Positions 911 to 17,144 of a stretch of 20,905 nt of DNA are shown here, one piece after another (the stretch's first letter is position 1; each line of letters opens with the position of its first letter). A program made the translations under genes and the position numbers. The notes below the pieces were generated by a model. It was not told the DNA's origin. It saw nothing but the letters and a program-made list of their open reading frames with translations, and did not search any database. Source of the stretch: a virus; IMG/VR virus record IMGVR_UViG_3300050014_000209, positions 1 through 20,905 of that record; one strand, written 5' to 3'.

Positions 911-921
911 TTCGTCAAAAA
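911..921 (-). promoter_or_regulatory. TTTTTGACGAA repeat element, copy 1
   Basis: The minus strand reads TTTTTGACGAA. It spans the stop codon of the 63-residue gene (the TGA lies inside it) and sits 72 bases upstream of the fibre start. The same 11-mer occurs at 14738-14748 and 17426-17436, and its 10-base core at 12653-12662. Function is unknown. Confidence 0.35.
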
Positions 922-1106
922 CTTACTAAATCATTTAATTTTTTTCGTCTCTTGGCACAGGTTGAACAGCCCTTAATATGGGTGTGAAATACTCTATCAA
1001 TGACGGTAGCTATGGGTTCAGCAACTTTTGCAACGACATCACCCAATCCCTTAATCTTAGGTATTTCTTCTTGTTTACTTTTGTTTACATCGTGGAGTCT
1101 GATCAT
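915..1106 (-). CDS. Small Cys-motif protein, unknown function
   Basis: A 63-residue basic protein. The ATG at 1106 overlaps the TGA of the preceding gene in an ATGA junction, which supports both the start and translational coupling. A predicted helix in the middle (GDVVAKVAEPIATVIDRVF) is followed by a C-terminal GCSTCAKRRKKLNDLVSF tail with a CxxC pair and a KRRKKLN basic patch. Similar GC-x-C-x(2)-R-x(3)-LN tails occur at the C-termini of small uncharacterised phage proteins. With only two cysteines, metal binding would need a partner or dimer. It is the third gene of a block with two glycosyltransferase-like genes and may act with them or be an unrelated tail-module passenger. Function is not assigned. 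Confidence 0.6.
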   Translation of the reverse strand: MIRLHDVNKSKQEEIPKIKGLGDVVAKVAEPIATVIDRVFHTHIKGCSTCAKRRKKLNDLVSF

Positions 1107-1714
1107 ACATTATTAATGGGGTGGGGGGTTGATAGATCATTGGCTCTGAATTTAGTTACCCCGCAATCAGGAAATTCTTCCATCCATCGAAGGATTCCCG
1201 TTTTATAAAAATCTACTAATCCATGCTCTATTCTTGTTTTACCAAATGATTTTTTGATGGGTTTTATATTAAAAATAAAATCAACACGGCGAATTGCTTC
1301 TTGTTTGTTAGTGATAGTTTTTAAAATGAAACTTTCACCATTGATGTTTGGAATGGGGTAGCATCCGATATTGAACGAATATCCTTCAACCATCTTGGTT
1401 AGTTCATCCTCCTTATTTGAAACATTATTCCAGAAAGAAGGACTAACGATACAAGTATCATGTAGTAAGAAGATGGAACCGGTATGTTGTCGTTGTTGAG
1501 CTTGCCAATTCAACGCAGTATACTCCCAATTATTTTCTTTAAATGGTATCATATTACAATCATAAGACCCCGATAACATGGAGCCCGAAGATATCATACC
1601 CCCAACAACTACAGTTATAGCCTCAGCCGGACAACCACTGGCACTTAAACTTGCCAACAAAGGCGGTAGGGTTAATTGATAATAATTTATATTGCTAGAT
1701 ATTAGGATTTGCAT
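1103..1714 (-). CDS. Possible second glycosyltransferase (GT-A-like), weakly supported
   Basis: A 203-residue protein from ATG 1714. The N-terminus MQILISSNINYYQLTLPPLL followed by AITVVVGG (residues 32-39) reads like the first strand-helix-strand of a GT-A nucleotide-sugar fold. The segment YTALNWQAQQ...IFLLHDTCIV (65-90) places an HDT (85-87) where a DxD metal-binding motif would lie, so the usual double aspartate is absent. The frame is open upstream to in-frame ATGs at 1738 and 1774, but these would overlap the preceding gene more deeply (44 and 80 bases rather than 20) and add residues that do not look like part of the fold. The gene directly follows a clear GT-A enzyme, and its stop overlaps the next start. 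It could be a degenerate glycosyltransferase, a partner subunit, or an unrelated tail protein. Confidence 0.5.
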   Translation of the reverse strand: MQILISSNINYYQLTLPPLLASLSASGCPAEAITVVVGGMISSGSMLSGSYDCNMIPFKENNWEYTALNWQAQQRQHTGSIFLLHDTCIVSPSFWNNVSNKEDELTKMVEGYSFNIGCYPIPNINGESFILKTITNKQEAIRRVDFIFNIKPIKKSFGKTRIEHGLVDFYKTGILRWMEEFPDCGVTKFRANDLSTPHPINNV

Positions 1715-2345
1715 AGTATTTTTTAAAGGTGCGTTCATACTCTTCGTCGGCTCCCGGTTTAAGTGATAAAGCATTTTCGTCGGTCATATCGTGAAGGTTT
1801 TCAAATTTATCAGTCGGAATAATTAATTTATTAACCATTGGCAATCTTCCAAATAAATCAATTTCCCCGCAGGTCCACGAAAATTTACTATAATCGTGAT
1901 TGAGGAACATCCATTTTTTCATGAGCATGCAATACGCAATGATATGATTCACTGCTTTCGGATACTCGTTCAATTCTTCTGATTTAATTATTTCTCCCTC
2001 TTTATAGGAATAATCGCCTTTATTAAATATTTTACCACATATTCCAAGAGCAGTATTATCGTCGGAATATTTCAATAGATCAGAAAATAATCCCGGCTTA
2101 ATTTTTATATCATCATCCATCATGAAAATATTATCATAGGAAGCCATCGAAGCTAGGGAATATCGAATATTTGCTCCGAGGTTCTTCTGTGAGTTTATTA
2201 CGGTTATGGGATAATCGGTTTTAAATATACCCGAATTATCCCATAATATTACTTCACCACATTCAGGCTCCGATAATATAGTCTTTAAATTTGACTCAAT
2301 ATTATGTGCTCGTTTCCAGTTTAAGAGAATAGATGTTATTTTCAT
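1695..2345 (-). CDS. Glycosyltransferase, GT-A fold (family 2-like)
   Basis: A 216-residue protein. ATG 2345 is chosen because it lies one base after the TAA of the preceding gene and starts the fold directly (MKITSILLNWKR); an upstream alternative start at 2411 would run 22 residues into that gene. Visible features are strand one with ILLNWKR (residues 6-12), EVILWDNSG (31-39), NLGANIRYSLA (55-65) and the DxD-type MMDDDIKIKPG (75-85, Asp77-79), which binds metal and the sugar nucleotide in this fold. SWTCGEIDLFGRL (156-168) fits the acceptor or catalytic-base region. There is no signal peptide or membrane helix, so it should act in the host cytoplasm. Donor and acceptor cannot be read from the sequence; candidates are virion proteins, host surface-glycan precursors or phage DNA. 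GT64-like assignment is an alternative. Confidence 0.82.
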   Translation of the reverse strand: MKITSILLNWKRAHNIESNLKTILSEPECGEVILWDNSGIFKTDYPITVINSQKNLGANIRYSLASMASYDNIFMMDDDIKIKPGLFSDLLKYSDDNTALGICGKIFNKGDYSYKEGEIIKSEELNEYPKAVNHIIAYCMLMKKWMFLNHDYSKFSWTCGEIDLFGRLPMVNKLIIPTDKFENLHDMTDENALSLKPGADEEYERTFKKYYANPNI

Positions 2346-2346
2346 G

Positions 2347-5300
2347 TTAAAAATATAAATCGGGGCATAGATATTTGTAATCGTAGAGGGAACAAATAGT
2401 AGCACACGCATTGGCCTTTAGATTCCATATATACAGCATGGAAACGGGAGCACCACCAACAGCAACATTTTTAATATAGGGCGGAGTAATACCTGAACTT
2501 GTCACGGTTGGATCATCAATCATCCACTTAAAATGTCCTGAACTACTAATGGGGTTGGGAGCACCGTCAGTCGTTCCGTCTAATAATTTAGTTGTTGGTA
2601 ATGTTAAAAAGGGTTCAATTTGTTGGGGTAGTCCATAGTAATCATGATAAAAAGTTGCGCCACCCTCACCTATCACGGGATAACTGTCCTGACAAGATCC
2701 ATCATCTGAAAGTGGCCCGATTACATAATAAGGATCGACCTCACATCTTTTATGGGGTGTTTGAAAATCAAAGGTCTGTTGATTCTGGACTACTTCCCCT
2801 TGCCAACGACTATTATAGAAATAATCATAAGTAACATTGGGAATAGAATATTGCCGAGAATTCTTACTCCATACTCCTTCATGATTATTACTATAGATTA
2901 TCCATGCCGTATTGCCGCAAGTCGAACCGCATTCATTTTCAGGAATACCATCGAGCGAAGCACTAACGATACTTACCTGAGTTGCCTTGAATGATTTATA
3001 TCCTAAATTAGGATTAGATCCAGTCGGAACCGGTAGACCCATACAGTCCGTTAAACCTGATAAACGACTAACTTCGGAGTTTGTCCGATTATCAACGACC
3101 CACTCTAAAGTAACAACTTGACCTTTTGGTTGATCATCACACCACCAAGTCTTGGAACCACTGCTTATAAGAAAAATAGCCTTCTGAAAATCACCACTGG
3201 CCGACGCATGAAAATCATCAATGTAATTGATGGTAACGGAACTAGCCAGAGGAGATTGTTTAGGAACAAATATATTTTGAGGGTTAAATGTTCCTTTATA
3301 AAAATCAACAATGGCCGAGCCTGAATATTGATTTTGAGGTGTTTCAAATTCTATTAAGGAATGAGTGTGGTCATATGTTACATTAATAGGAGTTGTTCCA
3401 AAGGCTGGACATTTTGGATAACTTAATCGACAAAATGTATTTTCAAATTCAGCAGGTAAATTTAAAATCAATGACCCCGTCGTTAAAGAATAGGGGGTTC
3501 CAACTCCATCACCACTAACCCCTGTTATTGAAAAGAAACCATTAACATCAGTTCCTCCCCATATATCATTGGTTGATGGGGGGATTGTTGGATTTAAGAA
3601 AATAGCACTTGCCGTTCCATCTCCTCCATAACTATAAAGGATACCTTGACCGGGAGTTGTCGACCAATCGGTATAGCAACTAACAGCCGTTTCATCAACT
3701 GTAAATCTATCTTGACCATATGGTTTATTAAAATTCCAAGAAGGTATTGTTTGTTTTACTTCACAGAATTTTTGTTTCCAACCAAAAAATCCTAAATTAA
3801 TATTGAAACTATATGGAAACAAAAATTGAGCATCATAGTTATTCGTCCATTGCGTTGCCGTTAAAGGTAATCCGAATTGGCCTCCATTAACTTGTCCGTA
3901 ACTTTCAATATACCACGCAGGATAACCGCCGTCTTCTGGATGACAAGCTTGATAATTATAAACGGGGAACCTCCAATCCCAATTACCTGTTTTGATTATC
4001 ATGGGGGTGCTACCACTCCCCGCAACTATGCTTGGTTTACCTAGTATGGAACCATCAAAGTAGGAACAAGTTCCTGTTGCTGCACAGATATCTTGCGAAC
4101 CTGTTCCCGACCAATAAAATCCTTTGGATGATTGATCGAACCACGCACAAGTATCGTAAGTTGGAGTCCAATCAGCACCACCCGTATCATATGTCGGAAT
4201 CCAGCAAGGACTATAAGGAACGGCACCATAGATATCGTTGATTGGTATACCACGTCCACCCGTGCTATAAGGTGCATTACCATTACTATCAGCAATGGGA
4301 GAACGAAGATCCAGTATCGGACAGGCTACCTCAACATCGCTTGGTCGTCTATAATTTTCATTATAAGTTACGAGCGGTGCAATATGAGCATAACCGTCAA
4401 TACGGGGAGGATAAATATTATTATCTGTTAATTCCCAAGTTGATAACAAGGTATCCAATTGAGCTTGAACGTCATCCCCAGTATAGGCATCTCCCAAAGT
4501 AATCAATCCGTCATATTGATGATCGTCATACCGAGCTCCACAATAACCAGAAACCATATGCATGGTGATGTTGAATGTATAACTTGTTTCGGTTCTTGTA
4601 AAGGAAGCCTCTAAAGTTGAAGTCCCCATTACTCCTTTATTGGTATAGGCCGAACCCGATAAGGGAGAATTGGGATCATCACAAAATAATACGCAATCAT
4701 CAGGATAGGGAACATCAAACGAAAGAGATACATCCCAACTATTACCTACATTGGGAAGAATAGCTGGTTGTCCTATTGGATACAAACCACCACATTCGTT
4801 GACGCTCGCAGCAACATTCCATTCATTCAGCAATTCTACGAATATTGGCATATGATTATTACCAGCAGGTAAATTTGTTAATTCACCAGCAATCGGATTA
4901 CCGGGATCATAGCTACCGGGATTATGGTAGGAGCGTGGTCCACTTTGAGGATTGCCATAAGAATCATAATGACCATTGGGGAAATCATATTCTTCAGCCG
5001 TGTCACCACATCCCGTTAAATGTTCTCTTGTCCACATACCATCCATATTAATTGTTCCAAAAACTCCACCACAGTTATCATCAATTTCATAACTTCCCGA
5101 AAAGTATTCGGTGAACGTGGAATCAACGTTAGTTGTATTTGTTGTTACTTCCCCTGAATATTCATCGACAACAACAGTCCTCGCTGAGGTTGATGTCCAA
5201 CTTACGCCGGATCTTTGGTTGATCAAAGACCATGGAGTATTGGTGTCGTCGCAAGGGTAAGACCCAGTAACGTCAGCATATGAAACATCTGCGCTATAAT

Positions 5301-5877
5301 TTAAATCCCAAGTTATACTCCTATAAGTTGTTTGATTAGGCGTTCCATTAAATCCACGATAATCAATAATATTACCTGAACAACTCGATTCAACATTGTT
5401 ACCTGAATAAAATTCACAATCGGTGAGGGGTGGATTACCCTGTTGGTATTTTTTGGCTTGAACATTTTTATAGCCCCACCAATTTTCACAGAGGGAATGA
5501 GTTACAAGGGAAGCTGTTGGATAAATCGGGATGAATGGAAATGTTGAATTATATCCATCGATTGGATTGGGTTGTAACCATTGACCATGAGGGCAACCAT
5601 TATCTACCATTGATGAAGTATCGTTACAACACCAACTGGGAGTTACAACGCAAGATTCATCACTTCCACATGCCAATGCAAATTTTCTAGAATAGGGTGA
5701 ACCGGTTGTTGGGATAACGCCACGAGGCATAATCACATTATCATTGATTGCATCTTGAATTAAATAACTTGAAGTTGAACTGCCCGTGAAAAAGGGTAAA
5801 TAAATTGGTTCTTGCCCGGTTTTCCAGCCGTCTGCTGGTGGGCGATATGGTTGACCAATTGAGCCAATATTCTCCAT
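2347..5877 (-). CDS. Large cysteine-rich tail-module protein, unknown function
   Basis: A 1176-residue protein, the largest in the window. ATG 5877 (MENIGSIGQPYRPP) lies two bases after the preceding TAA; an earlier start at 5904 would overlap that gene. I recognise no family. The composition is striking: rich in Tyr, Trp, Gly, Ser, Asn, Pro and Asp, poor in Lys, with about 34 cysteines spread over the full length, including CC near residue 88, CAATGTC, and a C-terminal cluster CATICSLYDYKYLC. A short tandem duplication WIPTYDT / WTPTYDT sits at residues 559-565 and 570-576. No signal peptide or membrane segment is evident. Size, composition and position between tail-tip genes and the fibre suggest a beta-rich virion protein of the tail tip or a spike. 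An adhesin or glycan-degrading depolymerase role cannot be excluded. Confidence 0.7.
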   Translation of the reverse strand: MENIGSIGQPYRPPADGWKTGQEPIYLPFFTGSSTSSYLIQDAINDNVIMPRGVIPTTGSPYSRKFALACGSDESCVVTPSWCCNDTSSMVDNGCPHGQWLQPNPIDGYNSTFPFIPIYPTASLVTHSLCENWWGYKNVQAKKYQQGNPPLTDCEFYSGNNVESSCSGNIIDYRGFNGTPNQTTYRSITWDLNYSADVSYADVTGSYPCDDTNTPWSLINQRSGVSWTSTSARTVVVDEYSGEVTTNTTNVDSTFTEYFSGSYEIDDNCGGVFGTINMDGMWTREHLTGCGDTAEEYDFPNGHYDSYGNPQSGPRSYHNPGSYDPGNPIAGELTNLPAGNNHMPIFVELLNEWNVAASVNECGGLYPIGQPAILPNVGNSWDVSLSFDVPYPDDCVLFCDDPNSPLSGSAYTNKGVMGTSTLEASFTRTETSYTFNITMHMVSGYCGARYDDHQYDGLITLGDAYTGDDVQAQLDTLLSTWELTDNNIYPPRIDGYAHIAPLVTYNENYRRPSDVEVACPILDLRSPIADSNGNAPYSTGGRGIPINDIYGAVPYSPCWIPTYDTGGADWTPTYDTCAWFDQSSKGFYWSGTGSQDICAATGTCSYFDGSILGKPSIVAGSGSTPMIIKTGNWDWRFPVYNYQACHPEDGGYPAWYIESYGQVNGGQFGLPLTATQWTNNYDAQFLFPYSFNINLGFFGWKQKFCEVKQTIPSWNFNKPYGQDRFTVDETAVSCYTDWSTTPGQGILYSYGGDGTASAIFLNPTIPPSTNDIWGGTDVNGFFSITGVSGDGVGTPYSLTTGSLILNLPAEFENTFCRLSYPKCPAFGTTPINVTYDHTHSLIEFETPQNQYSGSAIVDFYKGTFNPQNIFVPKQSPLASSVTINYIDDFHASASGDFQKAIFLISSGSKTWWCDDQPKGQVVTLEWVVDNRTNSEVSRLSGLTDCMGLPVPTGSNPNLGYKSFKATQVSIVSASLDGIPENECGSTCGNTAWIIYSNNHEGVWSKNSRQYSIPNVTYDYFYNSRWQGEVVQNQQTFDFQTPHKRCEVDPYYVIGPLSDDGSCQDSYPVIGEGGATFYHDYYGLPQQIEPFLTLPTTKLLDGTTDGAPNPISSSGHFKWMIDDPTVTSSGITPPYIKNVAVGGAPVSMLYIWNLKANACATICSLYDYKYLCPDLYF

Positions 5878-7852: not shown

Positions 7853-9652
7853 TTATACTCCACCACCATATCCTGTAGGAGGAGTTTGTCCTCCAATTAC
7901 GGTTGATGCTTTTATTACTGCGGTGTTGCTTGAGATCTGTCCAAGTAGTTCAACCATCTTTTGATTAAGAAGAACCATTCTTGATTGATAGTTAGAACCA
8001 AATACACCGCCTATCTTTAGTCCGGTGGTTGATGAAGAATTACCTGTCCCCATGAATGCTCCAATATTAGGTATTGGTGGAACAATGGACGAACCTGCCG
8101 TTCCGTGTTTCGTTCCTGATTTTATGGATGATTCAATATTTGCTGCTGCTCCTAGACCAAATAGTCCTCGACCACCATATTTAGCGAATTTAGACATAGC
8201 CGATGCTTCTTCTAATGTTTTTCCACCTATACGTCCACCTTTAATAAAATCCCCTTCCAAAAGTGATCGCATAGATCCTTTCATTTTCGACCCCTCGACA
8301 TTTTTCTCAACACCTTCCATTAACCGTTGTGTTATAGTCTTGCCACCCAATAATCCTTCGGTTCCGGCTGCTTTGTTTCTTAAATTGAATGCTTTATTTA
8401 ATAGGTTCTCCGATAAATTCTCCATGCCTAGTTTCGATGCCCCTACCGCCGCTCTTCCCAATCCATATTGCGCTCCTTTGGCTATACCAGATTCACCCCC
8501 CGTTAATAATAATCCCGCCGTATTAGCAATACCCTCACCACCCTTTGCCATTTTCCCACCCGTTCCCAGAGCATCATTAGAAATTTTTGCTTGTTTATTG
8601 ACCCATTCAGTCATAGAAAATGGGGGTGTATCCATTATTGATTGACCCATCTCTTTCAATTTTTTTCCTCCCAATATTTTCGGTAACATAGCGCCAAGCC
8701 CATAGATAAGTTCGCCAAATACTTTTGCTAAACCTTTAGCAATTAAATCAAATACACTAGTAAATATTTTCAGAACACCAAAGCAAAAATTCAAGGCTAC
8801 ACCACCAAATTCTTGTAATCCTTGTTTGAAAACTCCCATGTCACCCGTCAATATACCTTTCCAGAAATCAAATATACCTTTAAATAAAGTAATAACACCA
8901 CCCAGAGCATTGATAATATCATCAAAAACTGCTAGTAAAAGTGAAGCCGCAGGTTTTAAGTCCGTTCCGATTTGTTTCAAATCAACCACTAAATTAGCCC
9001 AAGTAGCCGATAATTCATTAATCGTTCCTTCGGGAATTATTTGACCTGTAGATTCCTCTTCTTTTTTTTCACCCAACATCGTATTACCATTGAGACTTTG
9101 ACCTATTTGATTGAGGAAATTTTCAGGTGTTCCCGTTATCTTTTCAATGTCTAACCGGTTTAAATTATCCGCTTTACTTATATCTCCGTTCGGAGCACCA
9201 GCTTGAATATTCTGAACTCCAGTTACTGCTTTCGATAAGAATTCTTCTTTGGAAAGAGTTCGGATATCATCCATCGTTACTCCCAATCGATTGAGAGAAG
9301 CAATATATTCTGCATTACCATTCAAGGCTTCTTTACGAGCCTTATCGATATTTTCATACATACTCATAACAGCTTCTTCAGGAACATTAGCCTTAGAAGC
9401 TAATAATTGAAGACTCTGTAACATCGTATTAGTTATACCCATGCTCTTGGATGTTTGATCTAATTTCTGTGCCCACTCCCCCGTTTTTTGGGCGGCTTGC
9501 TCAATTGCAGCCACTGAAAACAACATTTTTAATTTGGTTGCTAGTTCTCCCTTGACAACCCCTTCCAACCCCTTCATGGCATTAGTCGTTTCCTGAATCT
9601 TAGGAACTGATTTATTATCACAGTCAATTACGAATTTTGCGCCTAGTCCCAT
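7853..9652 (-). CDS. Tail tape measure protein
   Basis: A 599-residue protein that would set tail length and help pass DNA into the host. The N-terminal part (1-200) is helical, with IEQAAQKTGEWAQKLDQTSKSMG (50-72) and LQLLASKANVPEEAVMSMYENI, typical of tape-measure openings. Residues 235-325 hold a run of hydrophobic helices (PAASLLLAVF, INALGGVITLF, ALNFCFGVLKIF), the membrane-active part seen in many tape measures. The C-terminal third is Gly/Ala-rich and low complexity. At 1.5 A per residue the tail would be about 90 nm. ATG 9652 is one base after the chaperone stop and has an AGAAAGAT leader five bases upstream. The long open frame on the opposite strand is a by-product of its composition. 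Confidence 0.9.
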   Translation of the reverse strand: MGLGAKFVIDCDNKSVPKIQETTNAMKGLEGVVKGELATKLKMLFSVAAIEQAAQKTGEWAQKLDQTSKSMGITNTMLQSLQLLASKANVPEEAVMSMYENIDKARKEALNGNAEYIASLNRLGVTMDDIRTLSKEEFLSKAVTGVQNIQAGAPNGDISKADNLNRLDIEKITGTPENFLNQIGQSLNGNTMLGEKKEEESTGQIIPEGTINELSATWANLVVDLKQIGTDLKPAASLLLAVFDDIINALGGVITLFKGIFDFWKGILTGDMGVFKQGLQEFGGVALNFCFGVLKIFTSVFDLIAKGLAKVFGELIYGLGAMLPKILGGKKLKEMGQSIMDTPPFSMTEWVNKQAKISNDALGTGGKMAKGGEGIANTAGLLLTGGESGIAKGAQYGLGRAAVGASKLGMENLSENLLNKAFNLRNKAAGTEGLLGGKTITQRLMEGVEKNVEGSKMKGSMRSLLEGDFIKGGRIGGKTLEEASAMSKFAKYGGRGLFGLGAAANIESSIKSGTKHGTAGSSIVPPIPNIGAFMGTGNSSSTTGLKIGGVFGSNYQSRMVLLNQKMVELLGQISSNTAVIKASTVIGGQTPPTGYGGGV

Positions 9653-12792: not shown

Positions 12793-13740
12793 TTAGACTC
12801 CCGAAGTAGACCAAACAGGAACAATCGCACTGGTATTACCAGCCGCTGTCCCATAAATTGAGACCACGGCCATTCTCCACGCAGGTAGAGAAACGTCGTA
12901 TACCCAACGAACTTGGAGACTTAGACCAGAAGTAGGATCAACAGCAGTCGCCGACTGAACAAGACCATTGTTAATTTCCTGTGGTGCTCTCACGGCACAG
13001 ACGAGTCCAGCCTCATGTCCAAACATACCAACTAATTTATTCGTTCCATTGCTGTAGCTTGAACCACCTTGAGGTTTTGTAGCACCATAGAAACGAGCAT
13101 ATTTTTCAAGGTTGAAACCAATTAATTCCTGAACTTTGTTTTGTTTAACGGCATTAGCATCACCATAGATGTAGGTAGGAAGAATTCCAGCTACTAATGA
13201 TTGATAAGTATTCGGAGAAACAATACCAAAACGTCCATCTTCAGGAATTTCTAAGTTACTTAACATAGTAGCAGCATATTGAACGCTGGTTGAACCCGTA
13301 ACTGTAAAGTTAGAACTTGAAGCAACGGTTATACCATTAGTAAAAGAAGCTGACGTAATATTGCTAATAGCGTCAACAACGATACCATTCGCTAATTGTT
13401 TTACCATCTGAGGTAAATAAGTATTCTGTAATACTTGAGGAGTAATAGTTGACCATTCAAGTTCATTAAATACAATGTCATAATCACGCAATTTAAGCGT
13501 GGCCGTTACAGCACTCGAAGAAGCAGCAGTATCGGCCCAACCATTAGTTAGGTCATTAGGACTGCCCCATTGAGTATTGGAAATACGAGTCGTTACACTT
13601 ATACCACCATTAGCAATTTCAGTATCGAAATTTTTGGTGAATAAGTTGATTTTCGGCATACCTGCAATGTATTGAGTAAGAGATTCTTGAGCGAATACAG
13701 CGAGATAGCCTTGTAGTGAGTTTGCGGATGTGGCGGCCAT
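12793..13740 (-). CDS. Major capsid protein
   Basis: A 315-residue protein in the capsid position after terminase, portal, protease and scaffold-region genes. Composition is typical of an HK97-fold coat protein: Ala/Ser/Thr/Asn-rich with few cysteines. LQGYLAVFAQESLTQYIAGMPKINLFTKNF (9-38) forms the N-arm helix; VTTRISNTQWGSPNDLTNG resembles the strand and E-loop start of P22-type or related coats; LPQMVKQLANGIVVDAISNI is the long backbone helix; and EDGRFGIVSPNTYQSLVAGI matches the usual 'r-x-ivspn-x-ya-l' feature of coat proteins. It carries the AGAAAGAT leader, and an intrinsic terminator follows it directly, both suited to a highly expressed gene. I am confident of the role but not of the exact coat family. 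Confidence 0.85.
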   Translation of the reverse strand: MAATSANSLQGYLAVFAQESLTQYIAGMPKINLFTKNFDTEIANGGISVTTRISNTQWGSPNDLTNGWADTAASSSAVTATLKLRDYDIVFNELEWSTITPQVLQNTYLPQMVKQLANGIVVDAISNITSASFTNGITVASSSNFTVTGSTSVQYAATMLSNLEIPEDGRFGIVSPNTYQSLVAGILPTYIYGDANAVKQNKVQELIGFNLEKYARFYGATKPQGGSSYSNGTNKLVGMFGHEAGLVCAVRAPQEINNGLVQSATAVDPTSGLSLQVRWVYDVSLPAWRMAVVSIYGTAAGNTSAIVPVWSTSGV

Positions 13741-14718: not shown

Positions 14719-15552
14719 TTATTTTGTTATATCTGAGTTCGTCAAAAATTCATCACATGTATCAGCGAGAATATCAACGAATCCATAAGTTAGAGCCTTT
14801 TTACCATTAAATGATAATCCTTGGAGGTATTCGTCATTTATTTTTCGAGTTGAGGTAACAACTCCTTTAAATTGTAAATTAGTTTCTTCAACATCATCTT
14901 GAAGTATTTTCTTTTCTTCATCCGTTAATGACCGAAAACCATGACCTATTAATTTGTATTTACCGGCTGAAAAAGCTTCAATTTTAATTCCTTCCTGTTC
15001 CATTTGTTTGGTGCAATCTTCAATGAGAGTATACACTCCAACGCTTCCTACTTCAGCCGAAGGAGTCATTCCAATTAATCCACATTGACTTAACAACCAA
15101 TAGGCAGCACTGGCTGCTTTAAATTCCACCCAACCCTTTATAGGTTTTATATTACTATTAATAAAGGCTATTTTTCTTCCAAGTTCTTCAATGCCGGTCG
15201 TTTCTCCTCCGGGACTGGCAAATGATAAACAAATATCTTCGACACTGGAATCCTCAACACATTCATCCAACATCTTTGTTATCATGTCAACATTACATAA
15301 TCCTAATTCTTCACATGCTTCGGGGTCGGCACCCTTTATTAAAATACCACTAATAGGAATAATAGCCGTATATCCTCTCGGATCATTTTCTACAGTTGAA
15401 TTATTATTAGACGTAGTAGCTTCTGTTTTTTTTGTTATAGTTGTAGGATTTTTAATATATCCTTCAACTCTCTTAACCAGAATAGAATAATCCAACGGAG
15501 ATAATAACCACTTGCCATTGGAAATTTTAGAAGCTAAACTGGTAATATTCAT
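14719..15552 (-). CDS. S49-family prohead protease (lambda gpC-like)
   Basis: A 277-residue serine protease that would cleave or remove scaffold and trim coat or portal during head maturation. Visible S49/ClpP-fold features are YTAIIPISGIL (61-71), the oxyanion-strand region LSFASPGGETTGIEEL (109-124), the nucleophile segment KAASAAYWLLSQC (Ser148 in A-S-A-A-Y), PSAEVGSVGVY (164-174) and the general-base lysine in AGKYKLIGHGFRSL (Lys200). Length fits the family's short phage forms. The ATG at 15552 overlaps the portal TGA (ATGA). Unlike lambda, the scaffold is not nested in its C-terminus; candidate scaffold genes follow separately. The catalytic Ser/Lys pair is intact, so I expect an active enzyme. 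Confidence 0.9.
   Translation of the reverse strand: MNITSLASKISNGKWLLSPLDYSILVKRVEGYIKNPTTITKKTEATTSNNNSTVENDPRGYTAIIPISGILIKGADPEACEELGLCNVDMITKMLDECVEDSSVEDICLSFASPGGETTGIEELGRKIAFINSNIKPIKGWVEFKAASAAYWLLSQCGLIGMTPSAEVGSVGVYTLIEDCTKQMEQEGIKIEAFSAGKYKLIGHGFRSLTDEEKKILQDDVEETNLQFKGVVTSTRKINDEYLQGLSFNGKKALTYGFVDILADTCDEFLTNSDITK
14738..14748 (-). promoter_or_regulatory. TTTTTGACGAA element, copy 3
   Basis: An exact 11-base copy of the repeated element, here within protease codons (EFLTN near residues 268-272) and 24 bases upstream of the next start at 14713. Its occurrence inside coding sequence shows the spacing to the next gene is kept even where no intergenic space exists, or that this copy is chance. 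Confidence 0.3.
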
Positions 15553-17144
15553 GGTTGTTGTTTATTCAAATCTTCATTAGTATCAACAATAGGTTTAATA
15601 GTGCTGGTAACTTTAACCGGAGTTTGTTTCCATTCGGATATGACAAGGTTAATATCACGTCCCGTTAAATCTGATATTTTCTTAGCTCTGGTATAAAATT
15701 CTAATAATTCTTGCTCTTGTTCAGCCATTGTTTCTGATGCCGTTTTATTATTTAAACGAGTGGTAGCTTCATTCAGTGATATCACACCAGAGTTTAAATT
15801 ATCAATAACAATATCATTATCATAACGGGCATCGAGACTGAAGAGAGGAGGATGAGTAAATTCAATTATCTTTGCTAAATTTTCTTCATTGTTCGGAGGA
15901 AGAAGGCCACCTTCAATTGCTTTAGCCAATGCAAAGCCAACCGTTAACTTACAAACATTATCCAACAGAGTTTGTCGTTTGGTTATGGAATTTCTAAATA
16001 CTTCAGCCGCAGCACTCGTAACCCGACCACCAATTTTATTAGTTGAAAAAATTAACTGATGAGGAACGCCTAATGTTGATAATACTTGAGTCTCAAGTTT
16101 CGTCATGTATTCTTGGGCATCGTTAGTTGGACCCGATGTAGCGAGAGTTTTAATATCCCCACCATCGGCTCGAACATATCTTACTTCTGGCCCTTGGACG
16201 ATTTTAATTGCATGATCATTAGGACTAATCATTAATCCATTACCACCTGAATCTTGAAGCAGTTGTTGAAAAGTGTTTTGTAATTCTTGTGGAGCTTCAC
16301 CCGAAGCATTATGCTCCACTAACCCAATCATACTCTGGATTTTTAATTTATCCATTTCATATTGGTCTAATTCCTGTAAACTAATTGCTTGGAGAATTGC
16401 TGAACCAATCGAAGGTATGCCACGATTCTTATCGAAGAAACGAGGATTAAAAATTAAACGAGCATCTCTTGAGTCAAAGAGCATATCAGGAGTCTGAGTA
16501 GCACTTGAATTAACCAAATTATCAGCATTACTAACGGCAAATGCTTTAGCTTCACCTGATGGACTGTAAATAACCCCATCGGACATAACACAACCCTTAT
16601 ATTTTCCTTCATCCATTACCTGACCATCTCGCCCCAGATTTTTAATACGATGAGATGGAATAACTTGAAATTTAGGAAACCCACCAACTTGACCAAATAC
16701 TTGAAGAATATCACCATCCGTATCAATTGCTTGAGAAAGTAATGATAAACAAGTTTTAAAAGGATAAGACGAGCCACGATTACAACAATTTGGATACCAA
16801 TCATCAGTTAACCAATCAATCGCTAATTTTCCCCATTCTTTATCATTTCCCTTATAAACTGGAGCATATGCATCACCAACAGTAAATTGAGCTAAAATAT
16901 CAATAGCAGCCGATATTGTTGGATTTTGAGCAGCCATTTCACGGCTCCAACGAACTAATAATTCTCTACTATAAGTATCTAATCCAGCAGAAGAATCTGA
17001 TAAAGTGTAATAACGATATTTAAATCTTCCAGCATTACCATAACCGAAAATATTCCCGTATAAACCCATCGCATTCTTATTAGTCTTAGGATCGATATTA
17101 ATCTTGACAGACTGACCTTTAGAATTGCTTACTTTAGTTATCAT
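15549..17144 (-). CDS. Portal protein (lambda-type)
   Basis: A 531-residue portal that would form the dodecameric ring at one capsid vertex, through which the terminase packages DNA. Signature regions of the lambda portal family are visible: the N-terminal YTLSDSSAGLDTYSRELLVRWSREMAAQNPTISAAIDILAQFTVG (about 46-90), ILQVFGQVGGFPKFQVIPSHRIKN (residues about 145-168), RGIPSIGSAILQAISLQELDQYEMDKLKIQSM, and the C-terminal clip/stem region GVPHQLIFSTNKIGGRVTSAAAEVFRNSI. Length matches the family (about 530). It starts three bases after the preceding stop and ends in an ATGA overlap with the protease gene, the same order as lambda (A-W-B-C). The C-terminal tail is Gln/Lys-rich. Confidence 0.92.
   Translation of the reverse strand: MITKVSNSKGQSVKINIDPKTNKNAMGLYGNIFGYGNAGRFKYRYYTLSDSSAGLDTYSRELLVRWSREMAAQNPTISAAIDILAQFTVGDAYAPVYKGNDKEWGKLAIDWLTDDWYPNCCNRGSSYPFKTCLSLLSQAIDTDGDILQVFGQVGGFPKFQVIPSHRIKNLGRDGQVMDEGKYKGCVMSDGVIYSPSGEAKAFAVSNADNLVNSSATQTPDMLFDSRDARLIFNPRFFDKNRGIPSIGSAILQAISLQELDQYEMDKLKIQSMIGLVEHNASGEAPQELQNTFQQLLQDSGGNGLMISPNDHAIKIVQGPEVRYVRADGGDIKTLATSGPTNDAQEYMTKLETQVLSTLGVPHQLIFSTNKIGGRVTSAAAEVFRNSITKRQTLLDNVCKLTVGFALAKAIEGGLLPPNNEENLAKIIEFTHPPLFSLDARYDNDIVIDNLNSGVISLNEATTRLNNKTASETMAEQEQELLEFYTRAKKISDLTGRDINLVISEWKQTPVKVTSTIKPIVDTNEDLNKQQP

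Follow-up and report, generated by a model that had tools for sequence, protein, structure and literature searches.

Glycosylation of the phage particle is known from few phages. Corndog, a mycobacteriophage of cluster O, carries genes for an O-methyltransferase and three transferases between its portal and protease genes; the cluster O transferases were detected in infected cells and, by gel analysis, were not identified in virions (PMC4351075). Enzymes of the cluster O type are reported to modify the capsid and the tail tube (PMC11600133; PMC12619734).

The window, i.e., the whole stretch of DNA analysed here, is a 20.9-kb virus record with a GC content of 36%, and it likewise has glycosyltransferase genes inside a structural operon, which is the arrangement expected of a virion-glycosylation cassette. 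Its tailed-phage late genes lie on the minus strand in the order GpA-type terminase, lambda-type portal, S49 protease, major head protein and tape measure protein; three large proteins follow, then the block of three genes studied here and then a fibre-like protein (Table 1). No sugar-nucleotide enzyme or O-methyltransferase was recognised in the window. Among 235 terminase matches, 79 were Flavobacterium phage records; considering these matches together with the Nonlabens-like 63-residue protein of the block, a Bacteroidota host is likely for this phage.

Table 1. Positions of the block genes, their neighbours and other late genes in the window.
Feature	Coordinates	Strand	Evidence and remarks
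Ser/Thr-rich fibre-like protein, N-terminal 279 aa	2..838	-	No family match; candidate acceptor
P0003, 63-aa CxxC protein	915..1106	-	phrog_32048, E 2.8e-4; Nonlabens phage relative
P0002, member of the "HDTC" family, 203 aa	1103..1714	-	phmmer, alignment A4, conservation table
P0001, GT-A glycosyltransferase, 216 aa	1695..2345	-	PF00535, relatives, profile match, AF2/Foldseek
1176-aa protein with 34 Cys, upstream neighbour	2347..5877	-	No family match; candidate acceptor
Tape measure protein	7853..9652	-	phrog_9483, E 2.6e-5; marks the tail module
Major head protein	12793..13740	-	
Portal protein	15549..17144	-	

The three minus-strand open reading frames between the Cys-rich and fibre-like proteins were present as an earlier note on this DNA had described. 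The junctions it listed, namely, a gap of one base (2346), an overlap of 20 bases (1695-1714) and an ATGA overlap (1103-1106), were exact, but their tightness was nothing special, as most of the 20 junctions along the operon were gaps of no more than 6 bases or overlaps. Because tight junctions are the rule in this operon, the tightness of the block is no special sign of a complex, and the notion of a specially tight block was rejected. The start of P0002 at position 1714 was backed by family relatives beginning MKYIISSNINYY, which matches MQILISSNINYY. A near-identical block was also found in a second contig, IMGVR_UViG_3300050029_000111 (29.3 kb, 96-98% identical to the window; hereafter the sister contig, L005), and this repetition ruled out an assembly accident. 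Close relatives without the block were looked for, so that their tail genes could be compared; the only other relative of the window, L008, ended before the block.

P0001 scored 25.8 bits against PF00535 (Glycos_transf_2), above the curated cut-off of 23.3, which bore out the proposal that the first gene encodes a GT-A enzyme. Its DDDIKIKPG motif occupies residues 77-85, with DDD at 77-79, and TCGEI at residues 158-162 stands in the position of NCDDI in EXTL2. When viral contigs, genomes and phages were searched directly for homologues of P0001, the sister contig was the only hit. Relatives were reached by a search with the motif LNWKR..N followed by a profile search of viral contigs. They were present in more than 20 viral contigs, and their alignment (A3), in which D77-D79 was invariant, spans LNWKR, DDD and a TC.[DE]I motif. 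Against the PDB, the A3 profile matched EXTL2 (E 5.8e-5) and EXT2 (E 3e-4). P0001 itself stayed under the GT64 cut-off (PF09258; 18.8 vs 21.3), and several members of its family passed it (38.3 for L062 and 42.8 for L065). A search with the GT64-like L065 gave no hit in annotated phage records. The AF2 model of P0001 was confident for approximately residues 1-100 only (pLDDT of about 80-90 up to residue 50 and 57-74 from residue 51 to 100), and it had the strand-helix-strand order of a beta-alpha-beta nucleotide fold. The structure search that the earlier note had suggested as a check gave EXT2 as the top Foldseek match of this confident N-terminal half (E 0.013). P0001 is a GT-A enzyme, GT64-like, and belongs to an "LNWKR" phage family of GT64/GT2-like proteins.

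Ordinary searches with P0002 (Pfam, PHROGs, viral contigs, genomes and phages) gave nothing beyond the sister contig. It was nevertheless wrong to regard P0001 and P0002 as orphans, since motif patterns uncovered the families of both. For P0002, which has HDT at residues 85-87, the pattern F-x-h-HDTC-x-h-xxx-F (h, hydrophobic) was found in 76 viral stretches, approximately 62 of which encoded P0002 homologues, mostly over the whole length; a stricter pattern with Pro and Trp retrieved the sister contig only. When P0002 was used as a single phmmer query, approximately 60 viral relatives were found (best E 1.5e-19, L110), and P0002 and its relatives could be aligned over their full length (A4, 32 rows). 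The invariance of F82, HDTC and F94 is partly by construction because all of them are in the search pattern. Outside the pattern, N61, G117, Y119, K137, E144-D145, R176, K188 and N192 were near-invariant, and P0002 keeps all of these residues except E144, which is V in P0002 and E in 49 of 50 aligned sequences. P0002 also diverges at S91 (G in the family) and F114 (M in the family). A paralogue from the record G041, found by profile, does not fit the pattern, yet it has HDTC. Considering this paralogue and the conservation of the non-pattern residues, it could be concluded that HDT is the norm of the family and not a lost DxD. The second gene, described earlier as a DxD-lacking partner of the first, instead belongs to a distinct viral family of approximately 60 proteins with HDTC as its conserved signature. 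The G041 record, a 441-kb virus, encodes two divergent HDTC proteins (92358-92939 and 114256-114681), one of them within an open frame of 504 residues.

The HDTC family is known so far from uncultured viruses only; a tblastn search with three of its members gave no hit in 50,697 phage records, and the pattern scans covered IMG/VR, with cellular genomes being scanned with the window proteins only. A direct comparison of P0001 with P0002 gave no significant similarity, and an origin of the pair by duplication was thus not supported.

P0003 had been counted as a member of the glycosylation block. However, its family motif, KGLGD..AKV...C..C.KR..KLN, is common to Nonlabens phage proteins, which are encoded near the terminase gene and have no annotated glycosyltransferase alongside. 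The CxxC protein was rejected as a glycosyltransferase partner on account of this independent family; its relatives mark it as a small phage protein in its own right and no component of glycosylation.

The gene neighbourhoods of the HDTC family were rich in sugar genes, including the UDP-galactopyranose mutase, GT1, GT2, epimerase and methyltransferase families. A PF00535 gene lay within 3 kb of the HDTC gene in 27 of 48 records, compared with 13.2 expected by random placement within the same records (maximum of 21 in 2000 trials). In records longer than 50 kb, this was found in 9 of 15, compared with 1.9 expected and a maximum of 7. According to cluster labels, 41 of 66 HDTC loci had a glycosyltransferase or UDP-galactopyranose mutase no more than 3 kb away. 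The commonest neighbour was a family of DAO-type FAD oxidoreductases (25 loci), and an unannotated family (MKLLIGNTGLVGQT...) accompanied HDTC genes in 20 loci; L134 (3907-4887) and L142 (7534-7887) are examples of loci with recurrent neighbour families.

Two independent viruses repeat the layout of glycan genes beside structural genes. In the 6.3-kb contig L103, the order is GT4, galactosyltransferase (phrog_29879, E 5e-40), HDTC, methyltransferase, head-tail adaptor, tail terminator and major tail protein. In L149, a gene for a 1025-residue fibre-like protein is followed by a sugar cassette. This cassette includes a GT64-like gene (E 5e-22) and, two genes further on, the HDTC gene, as well as a UDP-galactopyranose-mutase-like gene, the last being assigned by eye. 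GT64-like genes also occur downstream of the tape measure gene, beside GT-B and GT2 genes, in seven further contigs (L061-L065, L067 and L068). In these contigs, the genes for the tape measure and a 261-residue product are followed by a recurring cassette that encodes a protein of approximately 700 residues, GT-B, the GT64-like enzyme, a second GT2 and sometimes more glycosyltransferases. The earlier note took glycosyltransferases of phages to be rare among structural genes, but these viral contigs and the cluster O mycobacteriophages contradict this view.

The two large neighbours of the block were considered as acceptors. The fibre-like protein is complete in the sister contig (1216 residues), where a further Ser/Thr-rich protein is encoded downstream of it. 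Serine and threonine make up 28% of the part in the window and 23% of the full sister protein. Because family searches with it gave no match, the label "fibre" is based on its repeats, its composition and where it lies. Positions 1778-2280 of the sister contig hold a 51-bp tandem repeat of approximately 10 copies, which encodes SNFFGYSAGMQATNANN-like units in this protein. Family searches with the Cys-rich protein also gave no match. Its gene differed between the window and the sister contig at 114 of 3570 aligned columns, 39 of these being gaps, and the three genes of the block had 4, 8 and 1 differences; the 34-Cys protein looks like a rapidly changing exposed protein. The genes of the major head protein and portal had 49 and 48 differences, respectively, and the genes between and around these two had 0-14; the divergence of these two genes suggests recombination patches.

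The genes of the block, the GT-A identity of P0001, the family of P0002 and its association with glycan and structural genes were established directly. Starting from these results, we propose, at about an even chance, that P0001 and P0002 form a glycan cassette in the late operon that glycosylates the phage's own virion. P0001 would transfer a sugar from an NDP-sugar by means of an ordinary metal-dependent GT-A site. P0002 would probably transfer a second sugar, with H-D-T in place of DxD, if, as its family suggests, it is a catalytic GT-A protein. The two enzymes would add their sugars in sequence or at separate sites on one virion protein. Since the genes are encoded with tail genes, a virion protein is the most likely target; it would be made simultaneously from the same operon, and the likeliest acceptors would be the fibre with its many Ser and Thr residues and the hypervariable Cys-rich protein. 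The valine at position 144 of P0002, where the family has glutamate, counts against this proposal, as does the lack of a recognised sugar-nucleotide enzyme or O-methyltransferase in the window.

Of the functions offered earlier, self-glycosylation of a virion protein is the best supported, and alteration of the host surface is its main rival, although we consider the latter rather unlikely. The pair would then modify a surface polysaccharide of the host, either at a late stage of infection or during a carrier state, and thereby exclude superinfecting phages or prevent progeny from adhering to debris; its place in the tail operon would only secure late expression. Relatives of P0002 are indeed often encoded in the extensive sugar clusters of big phages, together with UDP-galactopyranose mutase and epimerases, and clusters of this sort have been read as capsule or LPS modification (PMC7824862). 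However, no clear membrane-spanning segment was seen in P0001 or P0002, whose 19-residue hydropathy peaked at 0.80 and 1.56, respectively, and the Pfam and PHROG matches included no GtrA/GtrB-like gene or flippase beside the pair, although a Gtr-type O-antigen cassette would have such genes. In both L103 and the window, moreover, the genes are placed within structural genes.

As a less probable alternative than modification of the host surface, P0002 could be another protein of glycan metabolism, e.g., a sugar-binding or sugar-modifying one, that travels with glycosyltransferases. None of 32 HDTC members had a convincing match in Pfam, PHROGs, NCBIfam or the PDB, and hhalign comparisons of the family with GT-A families gave low probabilities (9.6% at best). 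In contrast, when the HDTC profile was compared by hhalign with 115 neighbouring protein families, five of its seven top matches were GT-A families, each of them weak, whereas approximately 13 of the 115 families were labelled GT-A (labels assigned by eye). In one of these GT-A families, the N-terminal helix and HDT of the HDTC profile fall on the equivalent helix and acidic site, and other GT-A-like neighbours of HDTC genes have HDD or HND where the HDTC family has HDT. An AF2 model of P0002 built from two sequences had a pLDDT of 28.5, too low to speak for or against a GT-A fold. A GT-A-type transferase is probable for the HDTC family, supported rather than proven by its sugar-gene neighbourhoods and these weak profile comparisons.

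The view that the two proteins form a complex, which the earlier note had suggested, was not supported: HDTC proteins usually occur without a GT64-like partner (a GT64-like match was found in 3 of 48 HDTC records, and one of these was convincing), and overlaps or minimal gaps between genes are common in the operon. It is accordingly very improbable that P0002 is a catalytically dead pseudo-enzyme that supports P0001, as might be read from the 20-base gene overlap and the missing Glu144, since P0002 also retains HDTC, Asp145, Arg176 and Lys188. Glycosylation of modified bases of the phage genome has an equally slight chance, given that the weak match of P0001 to a beta-glucosyl-HMC-alpha-glucosyltransferase (phrog_842, E 0.066) was non-significant, the genes lie in the tail operon and not with replication genes, and a search, not a thorough one, recognised no base-modifying gene in this incomplete genome.

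Taking the family as a whole, we suggest, with somewhat less than even confidence, that HDTC proteins are an undescribed glycosyltransferase family that has H-D-T-C for DxD and adds sugars to the particles, at the fibres or tails, of many unrelated phages. If this is true, there is a second, wider set of structural-module glycosyltransferases, one family of which has no name in any library searched, and it would point to glycan synthesis on tails or fibres as a common trait of uncultured phages. This would have consequences for receptor binding, for escape from antibodies and decoys, and for phage annotation. The HDTC signature provides a simple handle for finding and testing the family.

Compared with cluster O phages (Corndog gp35-gp38), the window shares tandem glycosyltransferases within a structural operon. 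Its glycosyltransferase genes stand beside fibre-like genes and not between portal and protease, one of them belongs to the HDTC family, and no O-methyltransferase was identified; the HDTC virus L103, unlike the window, has a methyltransferase-like gene as cluster O cassettes do. P0001 resembles the GT64 proteins EXTL2 and EXT2 in its GT-A fold, DDD site, [TN]C.[DE]I motif and family profile, but it is a short soluble phage enzyme and, taken alone, passes the cut-off of PF00535 and not that of PF09258. For P0002, the nearest likeness is a PF13712/PF00535 family among the neighbours in HDTC loci (neighbour family 6), which has H-D-D at the place of HDT and, by eye, the same order of N-terminal elements, but does not match the HDTC family significantly in sequence. 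Finally, the sugar clusters of jumbo cyanophages of the P-SSM2 type combine glycosyltransferases with epimerases, as do the surroundings of many HDTC genes; the P-SSM2 cluster is large, stand-alone, comprises 15 genes and has been read as surface modification (PMC7824862), whereas the window has two such genes, placed in a tail operon.
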